From Anaeromyxobacter paludicola (lineage in GTDB: Bacteria > Myxococcota > Myxococcia > Myxococcales > Anaeromyxobacteraceae): 64,000 nt of DNA. This document shows, piece after piece, positions 2,970 through 20,378 of the stretch. Location: positions 434,001 to 498,000 of the forward strand of contig NZ_AP025592.1 of NCBI RefSeq assembly GCF_023169965.1. The letters are read 5' to 3'. Numbering within the stretch: position 1 is the first letter of the stretch; the number at the start of each line of letters is the position of its first letter. A program made the translations under genes and the position numbers. The notes beneath the pieces are model-generated. The model was given only the letters and a program-made list of their open reading frames with translations, had not been told where the DNA came from and searched no databases.

Positions 2970-3745
2970 TGGCCCTCCCCTCGAACGGCGCGCTCGTCTC
3001 CCTGCGGGGCGCCGCCATCGGCTACGGCGCGCCGCTGCTGACCGGCATCGACCTCGACGTCGCGCCCGGCGACTTCCTCGCCGTGGTCGGGCCGAACGGC
3101 GGCGGGAAGACCACGCTCCTGCGCACGCTGCTCGGGGTGCTCCCGCCCGTCTCCGGCGAGCGCCGCCAGGCCCCCGCCGCGCGGGTGGGCTACGTCCCGC
3201 AGCGGGATCACGTGGACGCGCACTGGCCGCTCACCGTGGCCGACGTCGCGCTCATGGGACGGTACCGCGGGCTCGGGCTCGGCCGGCGGCCGGGGCCGGA
3301 GGACCGGGCGGAGGTGAGCCGGGCCCTCTCGCGCGTCGGCATCGCCGACCTCGCCGGGCGCTCCTTCCGGACCCTCTCCGGCGGCCAGCGGCAGCGGACG
3401 CTCATCGCGCGGGCGCTGGCGGCGAGCCCCGAGCTGCTCGCGCTCGACGAGCCGACCAACGGCATGGATCCGGCGGCCGAGCTTGCGGCGATGGACATCC
3501 TGCGCGAGCTGCACCGGCAGGGCGGGCTCGCGGTGGTGATGGTGTCGCACCGGCTCGAGGCGGTCGCGAACTACGCGCGGAGGCTCGCCTTCGCCGACAA
3601 GGACAAGCGGCTGTGGCGGGTGGGGCCGCTCGAGGAGATGCTGACGCCCGGGGCGCTCTCCGCGCTGTACGGGCGCGCCGTGACCGTGCGCGAGGAGGCG
3701 GGCCGGCGGTTCGTCTATCCCGAGGGGGGAGGGGAGGCGGCATGA
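2969..3745 (+). CDS. metal ABC transporter ATP-binding protein
   Basis: A 258-residue ABC ATPase starting at the ATG that overlaps the upstream stop. The frame stays open far upstream, but that part is a shadow of the binding-protein gene. Walker A (GPNGGGKTT), Q-loop (YVPQRDHVD), signature LSGGQRQR, Walker B with catalytic Glu (LLALDEPTNGMD) and the H-loop (VMVSHRLE) are all present, so the enzyme should be active. It powers the neighbouring permease. The stop overlaps the permease ATG (ATGA). The ZnuC/TroB family is assigned from context; specificity lies in the binding protein. Confidence 0.9.
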   Translation: MALPSNGALVSLRGAAIGYGAPLLTGIDLDVAPGDFLAVVGPNGGGKTTLLRTLLGVLPPVSGERRQAPAARVGYVPQRDHVDAHWPLTVADVALMGRYRGLGLGRRPGPEDRAEVSRALSRVGIADLAGRSFRTLSGGQRQRTLIARALAASPELLALDEPTNGMDPAAELAAMDILRELHRQGGLAVVMVSHRLEAVANYARRLAFADKDKRLWRVGPLEEMLTPGALSALYGRAVTVREEAGRRFVYPEGGGEAA

Positions 3746-12356: not shown

Positions 12357-14384
12357 GTGAGAGAACCCCCCATCGCCCAGAACACCCACGCCCCGACCCA
12401 GCGAGGTCCCGCCGCGGCGCCCCAGGAGGAGCTGCGCGCGCAGCTCGCGAGCGCGCTGCGAATGGAGCGAGAGCTGCGGAAGGCGCTGGAGGAGCACGAG
12501 CGGCAGGTGCGCCTCTTCGACGGCGTGACCTCGACCACCCCCGACTTCGTCTACGTCTTCGACCTCCAGGGCCGCTTCGTCTACGCGAACCGGCGGCTGC
12601 TCGAGGTCTGGGGGATGCAGCTCCCCGACGTGATCGGCAAGACCTGCCGGGAGCTCGGCTACGAGCAGTGGCACCACGACATGCACATGCGCGAGATCGC
12701 GCAGGTGATCGAGACGAAGCGGCCCATCAAGGGCGAGGTGCCGTTCAGGGCCCCGCTGACCGGGATCTTCGGCGTCTATGAGTACATCTTCACGCCCGTG
12801 CTCGGGCCCGACGGCGCGGTCGAGAGCATCGCGGGCACGACGCGCGACGTGACGGACCGAAAGCGGGTCGAGGAGGCGCTGCGCGAGAGCGAGGAGAAGC
12901 TCCGGCTCGCGAAGGACGCCGCCAAGATGGGCGCGTGGGACTGGAACCTCCTCACCGGCGAGCTGCACTGGACCGACCGCTGCAAGGCGCTGTTCGGGCT
13001 CGAGCCAGGGACGGTGATGAGCTACGAGGTGTTCGTCGGCGCGATCCACCCGGAGGATCGCGAGCGCGTCGAGGGCGCCGTCCGCGCCGCGCTCTCCGAC
13101 CACAGGGACTACGACGCCGAGATGCGCACGGTCTGGCCCGACGGGACCGTCCACTGGATCGCGTCGAAGGGGCGGGCGACGTTCGACGGGCACGGCCGCG
13201 CCGTGCGCATGGCGGGCATGGCGCTCGACATCAGCGACCGGAAGGGCACCGAGGAGCAGCTGCGGGAGGCCGTCGAGCGCCTGCGCGAGGCCGACCGGCG
13301 CAAGGACGAGTTCCTGGGGATGCTCTCCCACGAGCTGCGGAACCCGCTCGCCCCCATCCGCAACAGCATCTACCTGCTGGAGAAGGCCCCACCCGGCAGC
13401 GAGGCGTCGCAGCGCGCCAGGGCGGTCATCTTCCGGCAGACGGAGCAGCTCGCGCGGCTCGTGGACGACCTCCTCGACGTGACCCGGATCTCCCGCGGCA
13501 AGATCGAGCTGGAGCGCCAGCGGCTCGACGCGCGGGTGATCGTCCGGCAGGTCACGGAGGACCTGCACGGCGTGTTCGAGCACGCCGGGGTCGAGCTGCG
13601 CGTCGAGCACATGGGCTTCGCGCCGGCGTGGGTCGAGGTCGATCCGACGCGCCTCTCGCAGGTGCTCGGCAACCTGCTCCAGAACGCGGCGAAGTTCACC
13701 CCGAGCGGCGGCAGGGTGACGGTGTCGCTCACGAGGGACGAGCGCTGGGCCGAGCTGTGCGTCCGCGACACCGGCGCGGGCATCGCCGCCGCGGAGCTGC
13801 CGCACGTCTTCGAGCCGTTCGTCCAGAGCGAGCAGACGCTGGCCCGGAGCAAGGGGGGGCTCGGGCTGGGGCTCGCGCTCGTGAAGGGGCTCGTGGAGCT
13901 GCACGGCGGGACGGTGCAGGGCCGGAGCGACGGCCCCGGCCGCGGCGCCGAGTTCGTGGTGCGCCTGCCGCTCGTCCTCCCCGCCCAGCTCCCCGCGGAG
14001 ACGCGCCCCGCGACCCCGCGGGCCCAGCGCCGCATCGTCCTCATCGACGACAACGTGGACGCCGCCGAGACGCTCGCGGACGTGCTCGCGCTCGAGGGGC
14101 ACAGCGTCAAGACGGCGCGAGACGCCCGATCGGGCATGGCGCTCGTCCGGGAGGAGCGCCCGGAGTTCGTGCTGTGCGACGTCGGCTTGCCCGACCTCGA
14201 CGGCTACGACGTCGCGCGGGCGCTCCGGCGCGACCCGGCGCTGCAGGACGTCCGCCTCGTCGCGCTCAGCGGCTACGCGCAGCCGGACGACCGCGAGCGG
14301 GCGCGGGCCGCGGGGTTCGTCGCCCACATCGCCAAGCCCGCCGATCTCGACGAGCTGCGGCGGCTCCTGACCGAGGAGCCCTAG
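12357..14384 (+). CDS. hybrid sensor histidine kinase (PAS-PAS-HisKA-HATPase-REC)
   Basis: A 675-residue cytoplasmic sensor kinase starting at GTG 12357; no transmembrane segment is seen. After a short coiled region come PAS 1 (about 48-165) and PAS 2 (about 180-300), then HisKA with phospho-acceptor His325 (MLSHELRNPL). The ATPase domain has the N box (NLLQNAAKF), G1 (DTGAGIAAAE), F box (FEPFVQSE) and G2 (GLGLGLALV). A C-terminal receiver has the acidic pair (LIDDN), phospho-acceptor Asp608 (LCDVGLPD) and the Lys of AKPAD. The receiver suggests a phosphorelay or intramolecular control. The signal is unknown. Its stop codon shares CTAG with the convergent gene. Confidence 0.92.
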   Translation: MREPPIAQNTHAPTQRGPAAAPQEELRAQLASALRMERELRKALEEHERQVRLFDGVTSTTPDFVYVFDLQGRFVYANRRLLEVWGMQLPDVIGKTCRELGYEQWHHDMHMREIAQVIETKRPIKGEVPFRAPLTGIFGVYEYIFTPVLGPDGAVESIAGTTRDVTDRKRVEEALRESEEKLRLAKDAAKMGAWDWNLLTGELHWTDRCKALFGLEPGTVMSYEVFVGAIHPEDRERVEGAVRAALSDHRDYDAEMRTVWPDGTVHWIASKGRATFDGHGRAVRMAGMALDISDRKGTEEQLREAVERLREADRRKDEFLGMLSHELRNPLAPIRNSIYLLEKAPPGSEASQRARAVIFRQTEQLARLVDDLLDVTRISRGKIELERQRLDARVIVRQVTEDLHGVFEHAGVELRVEHMGFAPAWVEVDPTRLSQVLGNLLQNAAKFTPSGGRVTVSLTRDERWAELCVRDTGAGIAAAELPHVFEPFVQSEQTLARSKGGLGLGLALVKGLVELHGGTVQGRSDGPGRGAEFVVRLPLVLPAQLPAETRPATPRAQRRIVLIDDNVDAAETLADVLALEGHSVKTARDARSGMALVREERPEFVLCDVGLPDLDGYDVARALRRDPALQDVRLVALSGYAQPDDRERARAAGFVAHIAKPADLDELRRLLTEEP

Positions 14385-15127
14385 GGGACGCCCACCCCGA
14401 ACCCCCACGTCAGCCCGACCCGGAGCTCGGTGGTGTCCACGCCGCCGGCGCGGGCGCGCCGCACCGCCGCGTCGAGCGACAGCCCCTCGCTGAAGCGCCA
14501 GATCGCCCCGAGGAGGCCGGAGAGGGTCTCGGGGGAGCCTCGCTCGCTCTCGACGAAGAGCTCCGCCACCGGCCGGACGGGCCACGCGTGGTGGCCTTCC
14601 AGGATGACTCCGCCGAAGACCCCGGGCTCGTGCGCCCGGGTCCATGCCACCGCGCCGTTCACGTGGACGGTCAGGTCCGTCCAGCGCTGCGAGACGATCC
14701 CGGCCCACTCGGCGCCCACGCCGGACTCTCCGTTCCAGGTCGGGAGGAGGGCCCCCGCCTCCGTCGCGACGCTCAGGCCCGGCTTCTCCTGCAAGCTCCC
14801 CTCGCGCAGGACGTGCTTCACGGAGAGCGCGGTGTCCTCGACCCTGAGCCGGGGCTCGTGGATCTCGCCGCCGAGCTGGACGAAGTGCCGTCCCTCGAGC
14901 ACCACCTCCCAGCCGTCGGCGAAGCCCCAGTTGAGGATGGCGCTCGGAGCGACGAGCGTCCGGTCGGGGCCCTGGACGAGGTAGCCCACGGGCCCGAGCT
15001 CCAGCTCCACCGTCCCCCGGTCCGCCACCGCCGCGTCCGTCGAGTTGAACGGACGGTAGGCGAGCGCCGCCAGGGGCCAGGACAGGGTGAGCGCGACCAG
15101 CGTGAGGAGCGGACCGCGACCCACCAC
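14381..15127 (-). CDS. exported beta-barrel-like protein paired with pentaheme cytochrome
   Basis: About 248 residues, starting at one of two adjacent GTG codons (15127 or 15124) with GAGGAG upstream. Residues 1-24 are a signal peptide (LLTLVALTLSWPLAALA). The rest is made of alternating strands rich in Gly, Trp and Val, such as GTVELELGPVGYLV, AILNWGFADGWEVVLEG and WTDLTVHVNGAVAWTR, ending in ELRVGLTWGFGVGVP. It resembles small outer-membrane proteins of the transporter or copper-resistance-like types, without a named family. It lies 12 bases behind the pentaheme cytochrome gene and probably forms an operon with it. Confidence 0.7.
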   Translation of the reverse strand: MVGRGPLLTLVALTLSWPLAALAYRPFNSTDAAVADRGTVELELGPVGYLVQGPDRTLVAPSAILNWGFADGWEVVLEGRHFVQLGGEIHEPRLRVEDTALSVKHVLREGSLQEKPGLSVATEAGALLPTWNGESGVGAEWAGIVSQRWTDLTVHVNGAVAWTRAHEPGVFGGVILEGHHAWPVRPVAELFVESERGSPETLSGLLGAIWRFSEGLSLDAAVRRARAGGVDTTELRVGLTWGFGVGVP

Positions 15128-15139
15128 GGTGAGGGCTCC

Positions 15140-16432
15140 TCAGCGGCCCGCCCGGACCTGGAAGGGCAGGGTGAAGCGCGCGAGCTCGCGCTGGTCGCCC
15201 TGGAACGACCGGGCGTTGTAGCGGTTCAGGTCGTAGACCAGGGTCGCCTCGAGCGTGTAGGCGCCGTCGCGGGCGCCGGTCTGCCACGTGAGCACGCGCT
15301 CCTCCCCGGCGCGGAGCGGCGCCTCGTGCGGCCCCTGCTCGTCGGCCTGCGTCGCGGCGATGCGGTCGGGACGCTTCGCGTCCTCCGCGAGGAAGGCGCG
15401 ATCGTCTGGCCGGGGGCCGTACCACGGCGCGAACATCCACTCCCGCGTGGCGAGGACCTTCCCCTTGCGATCGACGACGCGGGTCTGGAGGTAGATCGCC
15501 CGGCGGTTCGATCCGGTGGGCACGGAGTGCCCGGCGCCCACGTTGATCACGTGGAGCTCCACGTCGGGGCGATCCTTCTGCGGCTGGAGGAGCACCACCG
15601 AGAGCGCGCTCCCGAGCCGCTGCCCCGAGTGGCCGCCGGTCCAGAGGTGGCGCGCGACGGCGCGGACCGGGACGTCCGGGCCCTCGGCGGTCTTCCGCTG
15701 GGTCCGCGGCATGTGGCAGTCCTGGCACTGCTGCCGCCCGAGCCCCGGGCCGGCGAAGTCGTCCCGCCACTCGAGGTAGGTCTGAGTCTGCTTGCCCGGG
15801 ACGCGCTTGCCCATCGCGTGGCAATACGCGCACATCTCGCTGCGCGACATCCGCTCGTCCGCGACGGTCGCGTGCGGCGCCTCCACCCGGTGCGGGCCGC
15901 GGACGTTCCCGTCGGGCGTGAGGTGGCAGGCGGCGCAGGTGATGCCCTCGCCCTGCGCTTCCTGGCGGGGCTGCGGCTTCGCGAGCTCGAGGGTGGTGGG
16001 CTCGGGGATCGCGAAGGGCTGGGGGAAGTGGCAGACGTTGCACTTCTTCCCTTCCTCCTCCGCCTCGCGGGCGTGGATGGGCCAGGGGTCGGTGCCGGCG
16101 ACGGCGTGCGCGCTCGCCGCCACGGACGTCTCGGCCGGCAGCTCGAGCGTCTTGTCCCCCTGCGTCCGGAGCTTCACGCCCGGGTATCGCATGTCGCTGC
16201 CGAAGCCCTCGGCGTACTCGCGGTAGATCGCCCGGTGGCACGCCCCGCAGTCCGACGACGGAGTGGCCGTGCCTCGCGGGAAGTCCCTGGAGGGCGTGAG
16301 GGTCGGCGCCGCCGCGCCCGCCGCGCCCGCGGCGGGCGGGGGCGCCGCGGGCTGAGGGGCCTGCGCGAGAGCGGCCCTCGCACCGAGGGCGAGGAGGAAC
16401 GCGGTACCTGCGGCGACGGCGAGACGATGCAT
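15140..16432 (-). CDS. pentaheme c-type cytochrome
   Basis: About 430 residues from the ATG at 16432, which has GGAGG six bases upstream; the frame continues to 16456 without support. A signal peptide (ending near ALAQA) and a Pro/Ala linker precede five CXXCH heme motifs: CGACH, CNVCH, CAACH, CAYCH and CQDCH. The last ~190 residues hold no heme and look like a beta-sandwich (NVGAGHSVPTGSNRR, then several strands). This layout resembles exported cytochromes of the c554 or multiheme-with-Ig-domain type. Additional His residues near the motifs could be distal ligands. It is expected in the periplasm or at the outer membrane, carrying electrons; the partner reductase is not visible. Confidence 0.88.
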   Translation of the reverse strand: MHRLAVAAGTAFLLALGARAALAQAPQPAAPPPAAGAAGAAAPTLTPSRDFPRGTATPSSDCGACHRAIYREYAEGFGSDMRYPGVKLRTQGDKTLELPAETSVAASAHAVAGTDPWPIHAREAEEEGKKCNVCHFPQPFAIPEPTTLELAKPQPRQEAQGEGITCAACHLTPDGNVRGPHRVEAPHATVADERMSRSEMCAYCHAMGKRVPGKQTQTYLEWRDDFAGPGLGRQQCQDCHMPRTQRKTAEGPDVPVRAVARHLWTGGHSGQRLGSALSVVLLQPQKDRPDVELHVINVGAGHSVPTGSNRRAIYLQTRVVDRKGKVLATREWMFAPWYGPRPDDRAFLAEDAKRPDRIAATQADEQGPHEAPLRAGEERVLTWQTGARDGAYTLEATLVYDLNRYNARSFQGDQRELARFTLPFQVRAGR

Positions 16433-16534
16433 GCGAGGCCTCCGGCGGCCAGCCAACGGGCGCTGCTTCAGTGCGCCGTTTCCTATGACAGCTGCATCAC
16501 GGGGCGCAACGAGCCGGCGCTCGCCCGCTTCGGG

Positions 16535-17536
16535 TCACCGGGAGGGCGCGAACGGGTCGGCCAGCACGAGCAGGCGGCCCTTCCCGGGATCGCAGACCCA
16601 GACGTTCCCCTGATCGTCCGCGGCGGCGCAGTGCGCGTCGGGCGCGGCGGGGACGGTGCCGAGCGGCCGAAGCTCCCCGTGCTCCCCCACGCCGACGATG
16701 CTGAGGGTGCCCGCGTCGCCCGCGGGGACGTAGAGGTGCGAGCGCGCGTCGCCGTAGGCGAGCCCGTCCACCCCCTCGCCCGTCGCGACCGCGCCGGCCG
16801 GCTTGCCCTGCGACACCTCGAGCGCGACCGCCTTGCCCTCGTCGCAGCCGACGAAGAGCAGTCCCCGGCGCGCGTCGAGGGCGAGCCCGCGCGCGCCCCG
16901 GCAGCCGTTGGGCCAGCGGGCGATGACCGCGCGGGCGCGCACGTCGATCGCGAGGGTCGCGTCGCGGAAGGTGTTGGTGTACGCGCGCCCCCTCGCGGCG
17001 TCGACGACCAGCGACTCCGGTCCCTCCGGGACGGCGATGACCCCCGCGCGGGCGAGCGCCGGCGCGGGCGCGCGCGTGAACCGGAAGAGCTCGACGCGCT
17101 CGCGACCGGGCTCGGTCACCCAGACCTCGCCCGTGGCCTCGACCCACCGGACGTAGTCGGGTCCGCCTCCGAGCGTCGCCCGGGCGACGATGCGGCGCTC
17201 GCGCGGATCGACGGCGACGAGGGTCCGGTCGGTCCGGTCGATCGCGAAGACGAGCCCGCCGCCCGCGTCGGCCGAGGTGGTGCCGTCGGTGTGCCCCTTC
17301 GTCGCCGAGCCGGTTCGGCTGAACCCCTCCACCGACTCGATGGCTCGCGTCCGGGGGTCCACGAGGTCGAGCCGCCCGGTCCGTCCGGCGGGCACCACCA
17401 CGCGGCCCAGCTCCGGAGCGTAGCGGAGATCGTCGAAGCCGATGCCCGCGTCTCCGCCGGGCATGGGGAGCGGCGCCGGCGCGACGGCGTCCCCGGCGGC
17501 GAGGGCGGCGGCCAGGAGCAGCGCGGCGGGGCTCAC
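16535..17536 (-). CDS. YncE-like beta-propeller protein behind chrA
   Basis: About 333 residues. The GTG at 17536 overlaps the chrA stop (GTGA). A signal peptide (SPAALLLAAALAAG) precedes repeated blades of about 40 residues with VxVxDPRxRRIVARA-type motifs, for example LVAVDPRERRIVA, LAIDVRARAVIARW and VALEVSQGKPAGAV. This is the pattern of seven-bladed YncE-type propellers. The function of the family is poorly known; in other bacteria YncE binds DNA in vitro, which may not apply here. Translation coupling to chrA suggests a role in the same response, perhaps in the periplasm. Confidence 0.75.
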   Translation of the reverse strand: MSPAALLLAAALAAGDAVAPAPLPMPGGDAGIGFDDLRYAPELGRVVVPAGRTGRLDLVDPRTRAIESVEGFSRTGSATKGHTDGTTSADAGGGLVFAIDRTDRTLVAVDPRERRIVARATLGGGPDYVRWVEATGEVWVTEPGRERVELFRFTRAPAPALARAGVIAVPEGPESLVVDAARGRAYTNTFRDATLAIDVRARAVIARWPNGCRGARGLALDARRGLLFVGCDEGKAVALEVSQGKPAGAVATGEGVDGLAYGDARSHLYVPAGDAGTLSIVGVGEHGELRPLGTVPAAPDAHCAAADDQGNVWVCDPGKGRLLVLADPFAPSR

Positions 17537-18771
17537 GACAGCGGACCCCCGAAGAGCCCGGGGGCGAACGCGCGGAGGAGCCCGAGGACGCCGCCTCCGA
17601 GGACCACGGCGACGACGTTGAGGCGCCACTTCCAGAAGGTCATCGCGGCGAAGGCCGCGAGCCCGAGGGTGACCGTGATCCCGTCGATGGCGCCGCCCGG
17701 CATGAAGGCGACCCGCGCGAGCGGGATCGAGATCGAGAAGATGAGGCCCACCACCCCGGAGGTGATCCCCTTGAGGAACTCCTTCAGCCCCGGGCGCGAG
17801 GTGAGCCAGTTCATGTACCGGGCCGCGGGGAGGACGAAGAGGAACGAGGGCAGGAAGAGCCAGAACGTGGAGAGCGTCGCGCCCGTCCACGGGATGCGCG
17901 CGCCCTGGCCGGCCAGGAAGCCGACGAAGATGCCGATGGAGATGAGCGGCCCGGGGGTGGTCTCGCCGAGCGCGAGCGCGTCGATCATCTGGCGATCGTT
18001 GATCCAGCCGTGGGTCGCGACGGCCCCCTCCCGGATGTAGGGCAGCACGGCGTAGGCGCCGCCGAAGGAGAAGAGCCCGACCTTGAAGAAGAAGACCGAG
18101 ATGTCGAGGGCCCGCCGCGCCACCGACTCGGCCGCGTCCGCGCGGCTCGCGGCGAGGAGCACGGCGCTCGCGGCGGCGGCCCGCGCCCAGGGGCCCGCTC
18201 GCTGCCGGGCGACGAAGAGGAGCCCGCAGCCCACGAGCACGAGCACGAAGGGGAGCCGCAGGAAGTAGAAGGAGACGAAGGCGGCGGCGGCCAGCGCGAC
18301 CGGGAAGACGCCCTTCAGCGCGGCGCGGGAGATGCGGACGAGCGCGGCGAGGAGCAGCGCGAGCCCGACCGGGCGGAAGCCCCAGAGCGCGCCGAGCACC
18401 TGCGGCGTCTTCCCGTAATGGACGTAGATCCACGCGAGGGCGGAGAGGGTGAAGTAGCCGGGCAGGATGAAGAGCACGCCGGCGAGGACCCCGCCCAGGT
18501 AGCCGCCCTTCTTGTAGCCGGCGTAGATGGCGAGCTGCAGCGCCTCGGGGCCGGGGAGGAGGTGGCAGAAGTTGAGGGCGCGGACGAACTCGTCCTCGTC
18601 CATCCACCTCCGCCGCTCCACCATCTGCAGGTGCATCAGGCCGATCTGGCCCACGGGACCCCCGAAGGCGAGCCAGCCGAGCTTGAGGAAGTACCAGAAC
18701 AGCTCGCGCATCGGGACGCGCCCGGCCTCGCCCGGCGGAGCCTCTACGCTGGGCCTGGGCCGCTCGTCCAC
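17533..18771 (-). CDS. chrA: chromate transporter ChrA (two-domain, long-chain)
   Basis: About 412 residues from the GTG at 18771, with GGGGAG nine bases upstream; an ATG at 18711 is an alternative start. It contains two homologous CHR domains. The first has FLKLGWLAFGGPVGQIGL and the LNFCHLLPGPEALQLA motif; the second has FFKVGLFSFGGAYAVLPYI and ALALGETTPGPLI. FGG and PGP elements appear in both. About ten hydrophobic segments follow. Long-chain CHR proteins expel chromate from the cytoplasm. The gene is divergent from chrB, with a shared control region carrying matching boxes. Confidence 0.93.
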   Translation of the reverse strand: MDERPRPSVEAPPGEAGRVPMRELFWYFLKLGWLAFGGPVGQIGLMHLQMVERRRWMDEDEFVRALNFCHLLPGPEALQLAIYAGYKKGGYLGGVLAGVLFILPGYFTLSALAWIYVHYGKTPQVLGALWGFRPVGLALLLAALVRISRAALKGVFPVALAAAAFVSFYFLRLPFVLVLVGCGLLFVARQRAGPWARAAAASAVLLAASRADAAESVARRALDISVFFFKVGLFSFGGAYAVLPYIREGAVATHGWINDRQMIDALALGETTPGPLISIGIFVGFLAGQGARIPWTGATLSTFWLFLPSFLFVLPAARYMNWLTSRPGLKEFLKGITSGVVGLIFSISIPLARVAFMPGGAIDGITVTLGLAAFAAMTFWKWRLNVVAVVLGGGVLGLLRAFAPGLFGGPLS

Positions 18772-18792
18772 CGCCTCACCCTCCCCAGGGCC

Positions 18793-18945
18793 GATGTAAC
18801 AACTGAACCTGACAGGTTCAACCGTGCGCACTCCACGCGGGAGGAGGTGCCCGGGCGAGCGAAGGGGCGACCGCCGGGCGAGCGCGCGAGCGGCTCCGGC
18901 GTCGCGCCGCGCGCTCGTTGAAGCCGGAGATTCAGTTGTTATATG
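18793..18945. promoter_or_regulatory. chrA/chrB divergent control region with duplicated operator
   Basis: TAACAACTGAA (18797-18807) and its exact reverse complement TTCAGTTGTTA (18931-18941) face outward near chrA and chrB respectively. The match extends to 16 bases with two differences. Each copy lies between a TTGAAN -35-like and a TAYATN -10-like element. For chrA these are TTGAAC and TACATC with 17-base spacing on the minus strand. For chrB they are TTGAAG (18918-18923) and TATATG (18940-18945) with 16-base spacing. A perfect 17-bp palindrome, TGAACCTGACAGGTTCA (18804-18820), overlaps the chrA copy. A repressor bound here would block both promoters. The chrB -10 overlaps its ribosome-binding site, so the chrB promoter is less certain. 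Confidence 0.65.
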
Positions 18946-18957
18946 GGAGGCGCGCGC

Positions 18958-19959
18958 ATGAGACCCCACGCCCCGAGCGCCCCGCCCGAGCGGACCCGCT
19001 GGCTCGTGCTCATCCACCAGATCCCGCCCAGGCCCGCCTACCTGCGGGTGAAGATCGGCCGGCACCTCCAGCGCATCGGCGCGGTGGCGATCAAGAACTC
19101 GGTCTACGCCCTCCCGCACAACGAGGAGACGCAGGAGGACTTCCAGTGGGTCCTGCGGGAGGTCGTGAAGGGCGGCGGAGACGCCTCGATGCTGGAGGCG
19201 CACTTCATCGAGGGCCTGTCCGACGGGCAGGTGCTCGCGCTCTTCCAGGCGGCGCGAGAGGCCGACTACCGCGAGGTCGCGGAGGAAGCGCGGAAGGTGG
19301 CCGCCTCGCTGCCGAGGCGCGGGCCTCCCCCCGAGAACCGCCGCAACGAGGTGGCGAACCAGGTCGCCCGGCTGAGGCGGCGGCTTTCGGAGGTCGAGGC
19401 GATAGATTTCTTCGGGGCGCCCGGCCGCGAGATCGCCGAGGGCGTCGTTTCCGCGATGGAGTCACGCATGAAGCCGCTCAACGAGTCGCGCGCGCCGACG
19501 AAGCCCAGGCTCCTGCGCGAGGACTACCGGGGCCGTACCTGGGTCACCCGGACCGGGATCAAGGTCGATCGGATGGCCAGCGCCTGGCTCATCCGGAAGA
19601 TCATCGACCCCGAGGCCCGCTTCAAGTTCGTGCCCGCGAAGGGCTACGCGCCGCAGCCCGGCGAGCTCCGGTTCGACATGTTCGACGCCGAGTTCACGCA
19701 CGACGGCGACCTCTGCACGTTCGAGGTCCTCCTCCAGCGGTTCGGCATCGACGATCCCGGGCTCCGCGCCATCGCGGAGATCGTCCACGACGTGGACGTG
19801 AAGGACGCCAAGTACGGGCGCGAGGAGGCGTCCGGCGTGGGGCAGGTGGTCGCCGGGATCGCCGCGGCCCACGCCGGCGACGAGGCCCGCCTCGAGCGGG
19901 GCGCCGCCCTCTTCGAGGACCTGTACGCGCTCCATCGGACCGGAGACGCCGCCCGGTGA
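18958..19959 (+). CDS. chrB: chromate-resistance regulator ChrB
   Basis: About 333 residues from ATG 18958, with GGGAGG seven bases upstream; an ATG at 18943 has no ribosome-binding site. The N-terminal ~145 residues match the ChrB N domain (RTRWLVLIHQIPPRPAYLR, KIGRHLQRIGAVAIKNSVY). The C-terminal half is the ChrB C domain (GRTWVTRTGIKVDRMASAWL, IRKIIDPEARF, FDMFDAEFTHDGDLCTFE, IVHDVDVKD). ChrB senses chromate and regulates chrA, and it may also act metabolically. It is divergent from chrA and its stop is coupled to a TfoX-like gene. Confidence 0.93.
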   Translation: MRPHAPSAPPERTRWLVLIHQIPPRPAYLRVKIGRHLQRIGAVAIKNSVYALPHNEETQEDFQWVLREVVKGGGDASMLEAHFIEGLSDGQVLALFQAAREADYREVAEEARKVAASLPRRGPPPENRRNEVANQVARLRRRLSEVEAIDFFGAPGREIAEGVVSAMESRMKPLNESRAPTKPRLLREDYRGRTWVTRTGIKVDRMASAWLIRKIIDPEARFKFVPAKGYAPQPGELRFDMFDAEFTHDGDLCTFEVLLQRFGIDDPGLRAIAEIVHDVDVKDAKYGREEASGVGQVVAGIAAAHAGDEARLERGAALFEDLYALHRTGDAAR

Positions 19960-20378
19960 GCGCCCGCACGCGCGACGACACCTTCCTGGCGCACGTGCTC
20001 GACCTGCTCGAGCCGGTCGGCGCGGTCGCGCCGCGGGCCATGATGGGCGGCCACCTCGTCTTCTGCCGCGGCGTGTCCATCGCCCTGCTCTTCGACGACC
20101 GGCTCTACCTGAAGGTGGACGCGCAGACCCAGGCCGCCTTCGCGGAGGCCGGCGGCGAGCCGTTCGTCTACGAGTCGAGGAACGGCACGGTGGAGATGAG
20201 CTACTGGACGCCGCCCGACGGCGCCCTGGAGGAGCCACAGGAGATGAGGCCCTGGGCCCAGCTCGCGCTCGAGGCGGCGCTGCGGGCGAAGCGGCCCGCG
20301 AAGAAGGCCTCCGGGCTCCGGAAGGCCCCGTCCAAGGTGAAGGTGGGGGCCCGGCCGAAGAAGCGGCGCAGCCGGTAG
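19956..20378 (+). CDS. TfoX N-terminal-domain protein
   Basis: A 140-residue protein starting at the GTG overlapping the chrB stop (GTGA). The core matches the N-terminal domain of TfoX/Sxy: AHVLDLLEPVGAVAPRAMMGG, FCRGVSIALLFDDRLYLKVD, then AFAEAGGEPFVYESRNGTVEMSYW. The C-terminal TfoX domain is absent and replaced by a Lys/Arg-rich tail. Single-domain members are common in bacteria and mostly of unknown function; a competence role is not implied. Coupling to chrB suggests shared expression under chromate or related stress. Confidence 0.85.
   Translation: MSARTRDDTFLAHVLDLLEPVGAVAPRAMMGGHLVFCRGVSIALLFDDRLYLKVDAQTQAAFAEAGGEPFVYESRNGTVEMSYWTPPDGALEEPQEMRPWAQLALEAALRAKRPAKKASGLRKAPSKVKVGARPKKRRSR

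Follow-up and report, generated by a model that had tools for sequence, protein, structure and literature searches.

A putative ChrB operator shared by the divergent chrA and chrB promoter regions of Anaeromyxobacter paludicola

The chrA/chrB locus and its inverted box

The analysed stretch of DNA from the soil bacterium Anaeromyxobacter paludicola (64 kb, hereafter the window) carries a chrB gene linked to a chromate transporter gene, chrA, which is divergently oriented and was recognized by Pfam and TIGR00937 matches. The chrA gene (17533-18771, minus strand; PF02417, 1.4e-76; TIGR00937, 243 bits) starts with GTG and encodes a chromate efflux transporter of 412 aa with 2 Chromate_transp domains, whereas chrB (18958-19959, plus strand) encodes a predicted chromate-responsive repressor of 333 aa, assigned by PF20229 and PF09828 and by an AlphaFold2 model. 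The 2 genes are separated by an intergenic region of 186 bp (18772-18957). The end of chrB is overlapped by a gene for a TfoX-N domain protein (19956-20378, plus strand; PF04993, 7.7e-27), and chrA is followed by an open reading frame (16535-17530, minus strand; from the list of open reading frames) which by eye resembles YncE/beta-propeller proteins and had no match in an NCBIfam search.

Within the intergenic region, the 11-mer TTCAGTTGTTA is found at 18931-18941 on the plus strand and at 18797-18807 on the minus strand, one copy in each of the divergent promoters. Over the 16 columns of GRTTCAGTTGTTAYAT, the copies at 18929-18944 (plus) and 18794-18809 (minus) agree at 14 positions, and the wider arms (18791-18810 and 18928-18947) are 85% complementary. 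The claim of the first-pass annotation that the same box stands inverted before chrA and chrB, with 11 exact bases and 14 of 16 overall, was thus confirmed in both figures. In the 18-bp register of the motif described below, the putative ChrB operators are GAGATTCAGTTGTTATAT for the chrB copy (18927-18944, plus strand), with the best motif score in the window, and CAGGTTCAGTTGTTACAT for the chrA copy (18794-18811, minus strand), with the second best. Both boxes are asymmetric, combining a good left half with a degenerate right half.

Each copy is flanked by TTGAA and a TAYAT −10-like element. The promoter-like core of chrB (18918-18945, plus strand) consists of TTGAAG (18918-18923) and TATATG (18940-18945) with a spacer of 16, and that of chrA (18793-18821, minus strand) of TTGAAC (18816-18821) and TACATC (18793-18798) with a spacer of 17. 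The chrB copy of the box covers the spacer and the −10-like element. In the relative L181, the chrB register is kept, and the chrA register is kept before chrC. Because a strict sigma-70 scan reported no promoter in the chrA/chrB intergenic region, the −35 and −10 assignments, which had been put forward earlier as promoter elements around both boxes, are best regarded as putative; their TTGAA and TAYAT flanks are present as described. The chrB Shine-Dalgarno sequence GGGAGG (18945-18950) lies immediately 3′ of TATATG, so that, if the −10-like assignment is right, the chrB mRNA would be nearly leaderless. At the place of the chrB Shine-Dalgarno and start region, ACAGTTGA is conserved in L182, L186 and L188, and TTG may serve as a start codon there.

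The intergenic region alone is suggestive of a meaningful duplication, not decisive, since dinucleotide shuffles of the 186 bp reach it in about 1% to 2% of cases: an inverted exact match of at least 11 bases arose in 14 of 1,000 shuffles, and an inverted match of at least 14 of 16 in 3 of 150. The perfect 17-bp palindrome TGAACCTGACAGGTTCA (18804-18820), which the earlier annotation had noted at the chrA copy, is indeed perfect, but comparison lends no support to an operator role, and the palindrome was rejected as an operator: its symmetry is lost in L181 (TGTACCTGACGGATTCA), and a palindrome arm of at least 8 bases appears in 34 of 1,000 shuffles (3.4%). It is real but probably incidental and, as judged from sequence comparison, does not belong to the conserved operator.

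Distribution of the box in the genome, in relatives and across phyla

Pattern matching over the whole genome (4,590,331 bp) revealed exactly 2 exact copies of TTCAGTTGTTA, both in the chrA/chrB intergenic region. When up to 3 mismatches are allowed, the genome has 20 sites, a level matching that of the reversed-pattern control; the 2 boxes and perhaps the site at 16483 discussed below are exceptions. The second chrA of the genome, located far from chrB, has no box upstream. Among 117 related genomes, TNCAGTTGTTAYAT has 5 sites, all at chr loci and falling in 3 of the ChrB-carrying genomes, compared with 0 for the reversed pattern: 2 here, 2 in A. oryzisoli (G021) and 1 before chrB in A. oryzae (G022). 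In A. oryzisoli (L036/L181), the divergent partner of chrB is a chrC-type superoxide dismutase gene preceded by the same box, suggesting that the box follows the resistance regulon rather than one particular gene. Genome-wide, the box is locus specific.

Analysis of 80 chrB loci taken from GTDB genomes extended the association. The pattern GAT[AT]C[AG]NBTG is present upstream of 62 of the 80 chrB genes, against an expectation of 0.93 hits derived from the remainder of these loci. Expectation-maximisation on 68 chrB upstream regions, with Anaeromyxobacter and its nearest relatives left out, yielded ATGATACAAGTGTTGCAT at a log-likelihood of 556, as opposed to 56 to 64 for shuffles, and the motif trained without the Anaeromyxobacter family ranked the window boxes first and second in the 64 kb. 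With this all-taxa motif, the chrB copy scores 16.5 bits, the chrA copy 14.8 bits and the next site of the window 7.9 bits. The wider motif, ATGATACANNTGTTGCAT, is imperfectly palindromic, and its core, GATnCRnnYG, is located upstream of 75 of the 80 chrB genes, as opposed to 9% of shuffled sequences and 12 of 70 windows taken at a distance. Of the 5 loci without an upstream core, 4 (L072, L083, L111 and L112) carry a box elsewhere at the locus, before a superoxide dismutase gene, a chrF gene (L072) or the gene that opens the chrB operon. The gene that the box precedes in L111 and L112 (Gemmatimonadota) looks like an ornithine cyclodeaminase gene and lies ahead of chrB on the same strand. Ten loci display the full palindrome GATnCRnnYGnATC, e.g., GATACAACTGTATC, which is what a dimer would predict. 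The search proposed in the first-pass annotation, for the box upstream of other chr genes, therefore gave a positive answer for chrC and chrF.

A search of 20 alphaproteobacterial genomes for GATACAASTGTTKC returned 16 sites, 15 of them at known chr loci and the remaining one before a second chrB, adjoining a superoxide dismutase gene. A motif built from the non-alphaproteobacterial phyla gives 24.4 bits for the chrB copy and 18.6 bits for the chrA copy of the window, whereas a motif from alphaproteobacteria only does not find the window boxes, indicating that the motif has lineage subtypes. In Reyranella-type loci, the region between the divergently oriented chrC and chrB holds 2 separate boxes, and a similar bidirectional arrangement of chrC and chrB is seen in Reyranella, rhizobia and A. 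oryzisoli. Locus L189 of G009 has a second strong box, GTGATACAGATGCGATAT (20.5 bits), at position 3525 (minus strand); it lies approximately 6.5 kb from chrB, and no gene adjoining it is clearly a chr gene. A search of the available literature found no report of an operator motif for chromosomal-type ChrB.

A candidate third box upstream of a five-haem cytochrome gene

The first-pass annotation overlooked a probable third copy of the box. The candidate, GTGATGCAGCTGTCATAG (16483-16500, minus strand), is the third-best site of the window with the non-alphaproteobacterial motif, scoring 15.7 bits, and a simulated background of 6 Mb yielded no site of at least 14 bits with this motif. Under the all-taxa motif, the score of this site drops to 4.6 bits, for which reason we retain it as a candidate. 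Its frame, TTGCGC-16-CATAGG, matches the chrB promoter in register, with agreement at 19 of 28 positions, and it lies approximately 50 bp before the gene for a chr-linked c-type cytochrome with 5 haem-binding CXXCH motifs (15140-16432, minus strand).

The cytochrome is present in 4 of the 117 relatives, all of them ChrB-bearing, each time within approximately 7 kb of chrB. In G001, the gene is the one immediately after chrB and thus lies downstream of the chrB box. No box of their own was seen for the orthologues in G020 and G021, and none stands directly before the cytochrome in L181 and L182 or before the cytochrome paralogues of the A. paludicola genome, at positions 4456566 and 4474740. 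The paralogues at 4456566 form a pair without a box. The gene following the cytochrome (14381-15127, minus strand) encodes a protein of 248 aa that, based on tblastn, recurs in the chr clusters L181, L182, L186, L188 and L190; the protein had no Pfam match, and our guess from its sequence is an outer-membrane barrel. Taken at face value, the third, weaker copy suggests that ChrB may also control a cytochrome of the metal-reducing type.

ChrB as the putative ligand and its relationship to known systems

Both Pfam domains of ChrB are well above their cut-offs (ChrB_N, PF20229, 55.5 bits versus 23; ChrB_C, PF09828, 154.8 bits versus 25). In the AlphaFold2 model (pLDDT of 92), residues 15-81 adopt a ferredoxin-like, Cas2-like fold, the beta-alpha-beta unit of which starts at residue 15, with neither a winged helix in the model nor a helical DNA-binding domain before that residue. 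A sequence search of the PDB with ChrB found no relative. By fold, the N-terminal half of the model matches PaaX and Cas2 chains: residues 10-180 align after the PaaX winged helix, with Z values of 9.2 over 148 residues for 3kfw (Rv0674) and 7.0 over 158 residues, rmsd 4.9, for 8a39 (the phenylacetyl-CoA repressor PaaX of E. coli). These values are little above those of common arrangements, and PF20803, the central Cas2-like domain of PaaX, matches ChrB at 20.3 bits, below its cut-off of 24; hence, the relationship to PaaX is a lead. What sets ChrB apart from PaaX is the lack of an N-terminal winged helix and the presence of a chromate-sensing C-terminal domain. The site given for PaaX in a review, TGATTC(N27)GAATCA (PMC9493321), has the half-site TGATTC in common with the box, although the spacing of the half-sites is quite different, and the likeness may be a coincidence.

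In the papers found, work on ChrB concerns systems borne on plasmids and transposons, for which the operator remained uncertain. In the chr operon of TnOtChr from Ochrobactrum tritici, ChrB acts as a repressor of its own promoter, to which it binds in vitro, and chromate is the inducer; an inverted repeat in the chrB promoter overlaps the −10 element, and the substitutions R18A and R23A render expression constitutive (PMC3817168). The locus described here resembles that system in having a chrB that adjoins chrA and would be autoregulated, with a putative operator overlapping the −10-like element near the chrB start, as well as a two-domain ChrB with conserved key N-terminal arginines. The latter correspond to R30 and R35, located in the first helix of the modelled ferredoxin-like fold and invariant in all sequences aligned (alignments A2 and A3); the correspondence was established through the Klebsiella protein, in which the residues are likewise numbered 18 and 23. 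The plasmid-type ChrBs of Klebsiella, Shewanella, Pseudomonas and Cupriavidus metallidurans, used as a proxy for O. tritici, are approximately 30% identical to the ChrB of the window.

The DNA sites differ. The O. tritici operator, GTAGATCTTATCTCATTATTGTAGTAACATCTAC, is a single site before the chrBACF operon, and its repeat, scoring −9.2 bits with our motif, was rejected as a form of the box; conversely, 18772-18957 contains no inverted repeat of the GTAGAT...ATCTAC type. The chrI-chrB-chrA-chrC locus of C. metallidurans (L152) is alike in that ChrB is followed by chrA and a superoxide dismutase gene, but it has no motif match, displaying by eye the palindrome TGTAGAGATCTCTACA upstream. None of the plasmid-type chrB upstream regions (Klebsiella, Shewanella, Pseudomonas and C. 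metallidurans) matches the motif. Other repeats occur upstream of chrB in L152, L155 and L153, e.g., AATCTCTAC in Klebsiella. Given the plasmid-type regions and the O. tritici repeat, the ChrB family appears to have at least 2 operator types. Furthermore, because the O. tritici operator is unlike the motif and mutation of that reported operator did not abolish binding by O. tritici ChrB (PMC3817168), homology covers the mechanism rather than the sequence of the site.

Collectively, the box is locus specific, is linked to chrB across phyla and is present before chrC and chrF. As the motif precedes chrB relatives in many phyla, the box is very probably the switch of ChrB, and we put at about 0.86 the probability that it is the operator of the repressor encoded at the same locus, serving both divergent promoters. 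The earlier suggestion that one regulator could silence both genes is strongly supported by comparison, through the locus specificity, the chrB-linked motif and the boxes before chrC and chrF. From the known system, we infer ChrB as the binder, repression by binding and induction by chromate. In the absence of chromate, ChrB, which is a dimer in O. tritici, would occupy the 2 boxes and, by masking the spacer and −10-like element of each promoter, keep RNA polymerase off chrA and chrB; binding of chromate by the C-terminal domain would relieve the repression.

The box could instead be a duplicated promoter element, maintained for RNA polymerase rather than for a repressor, in which an extended −10 (TGTTAYAT) is preceded by upstream sequence common to both copies. 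The 3′ part of either copy can indeed be read as an extended −10, and L181 preserves the −35/−10 register, but the best-conserved part, GATnCAnnTG, lies upstream of the −10 part, the alphaproteobacterial box runs on as TGTTGCAT with no −10 inside, the full palindrome recurs at 10 loci, and a general promoter would not be limited to chr loci, all of which makes this reading very unlikely. A plain duplicated promoter was rejected on account of the conserved core outside the −10 part. We assign a similarly small chance to binding by a regulator encoded elsewhere or by an alternative sigma factor. Chromate and oxidative stress responses can overlap, and the role of ChrB as the binder is itself a deduction, both of which speak for such a factor; yet the motif tracks chrB over several phyla, was found exclusively at chr loci in the genomes searched, is palindrome-like and is used in both orientations at variable distances from the start codon. 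That the 2 copies and the palindrome are products of chance in a GC-rich region is scarcely credible as a whole: the shuffle frequencies given above (about 1% to 2% for the inverted match and 3.4% for the palindrome) leave some room for it, but the comparative evidence rules out chance for the box, while for the 17-bp palindrome chance is the most likely reading.

More doubtful than the assignment of the box to ChrB is a wider proposal, which we offer tentatively and consider rather less probable than its opposite: that ChrB controls chrA and, through the third operator, the cytochrome with its possible outer-membrane partner, reading TGATWC half-sites via a Cas2-like domain without a winged helix. 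Operons of chr genes controlled by ChrB are already known, but the cytochrome link would be new. If the proposal is true, a single sensor would turn on chromate export together with extracytoplasmic electron transfer to chromate; a chromate sensor governing a multihaem cytochrome would matter, as would a repressor that recognizes DNA by a Cas2-like domain without a winged helix. The motif, tied to chromosomal ChrB in alphaproteobacteria, myxobacteria, Gemmatimonadota, Acidobacteriota and Nitrospirota, offers an operator open to direct testing and a means of recognizing chromate regulons by sequence, and could serve chromate biosensors in soil bacteria.
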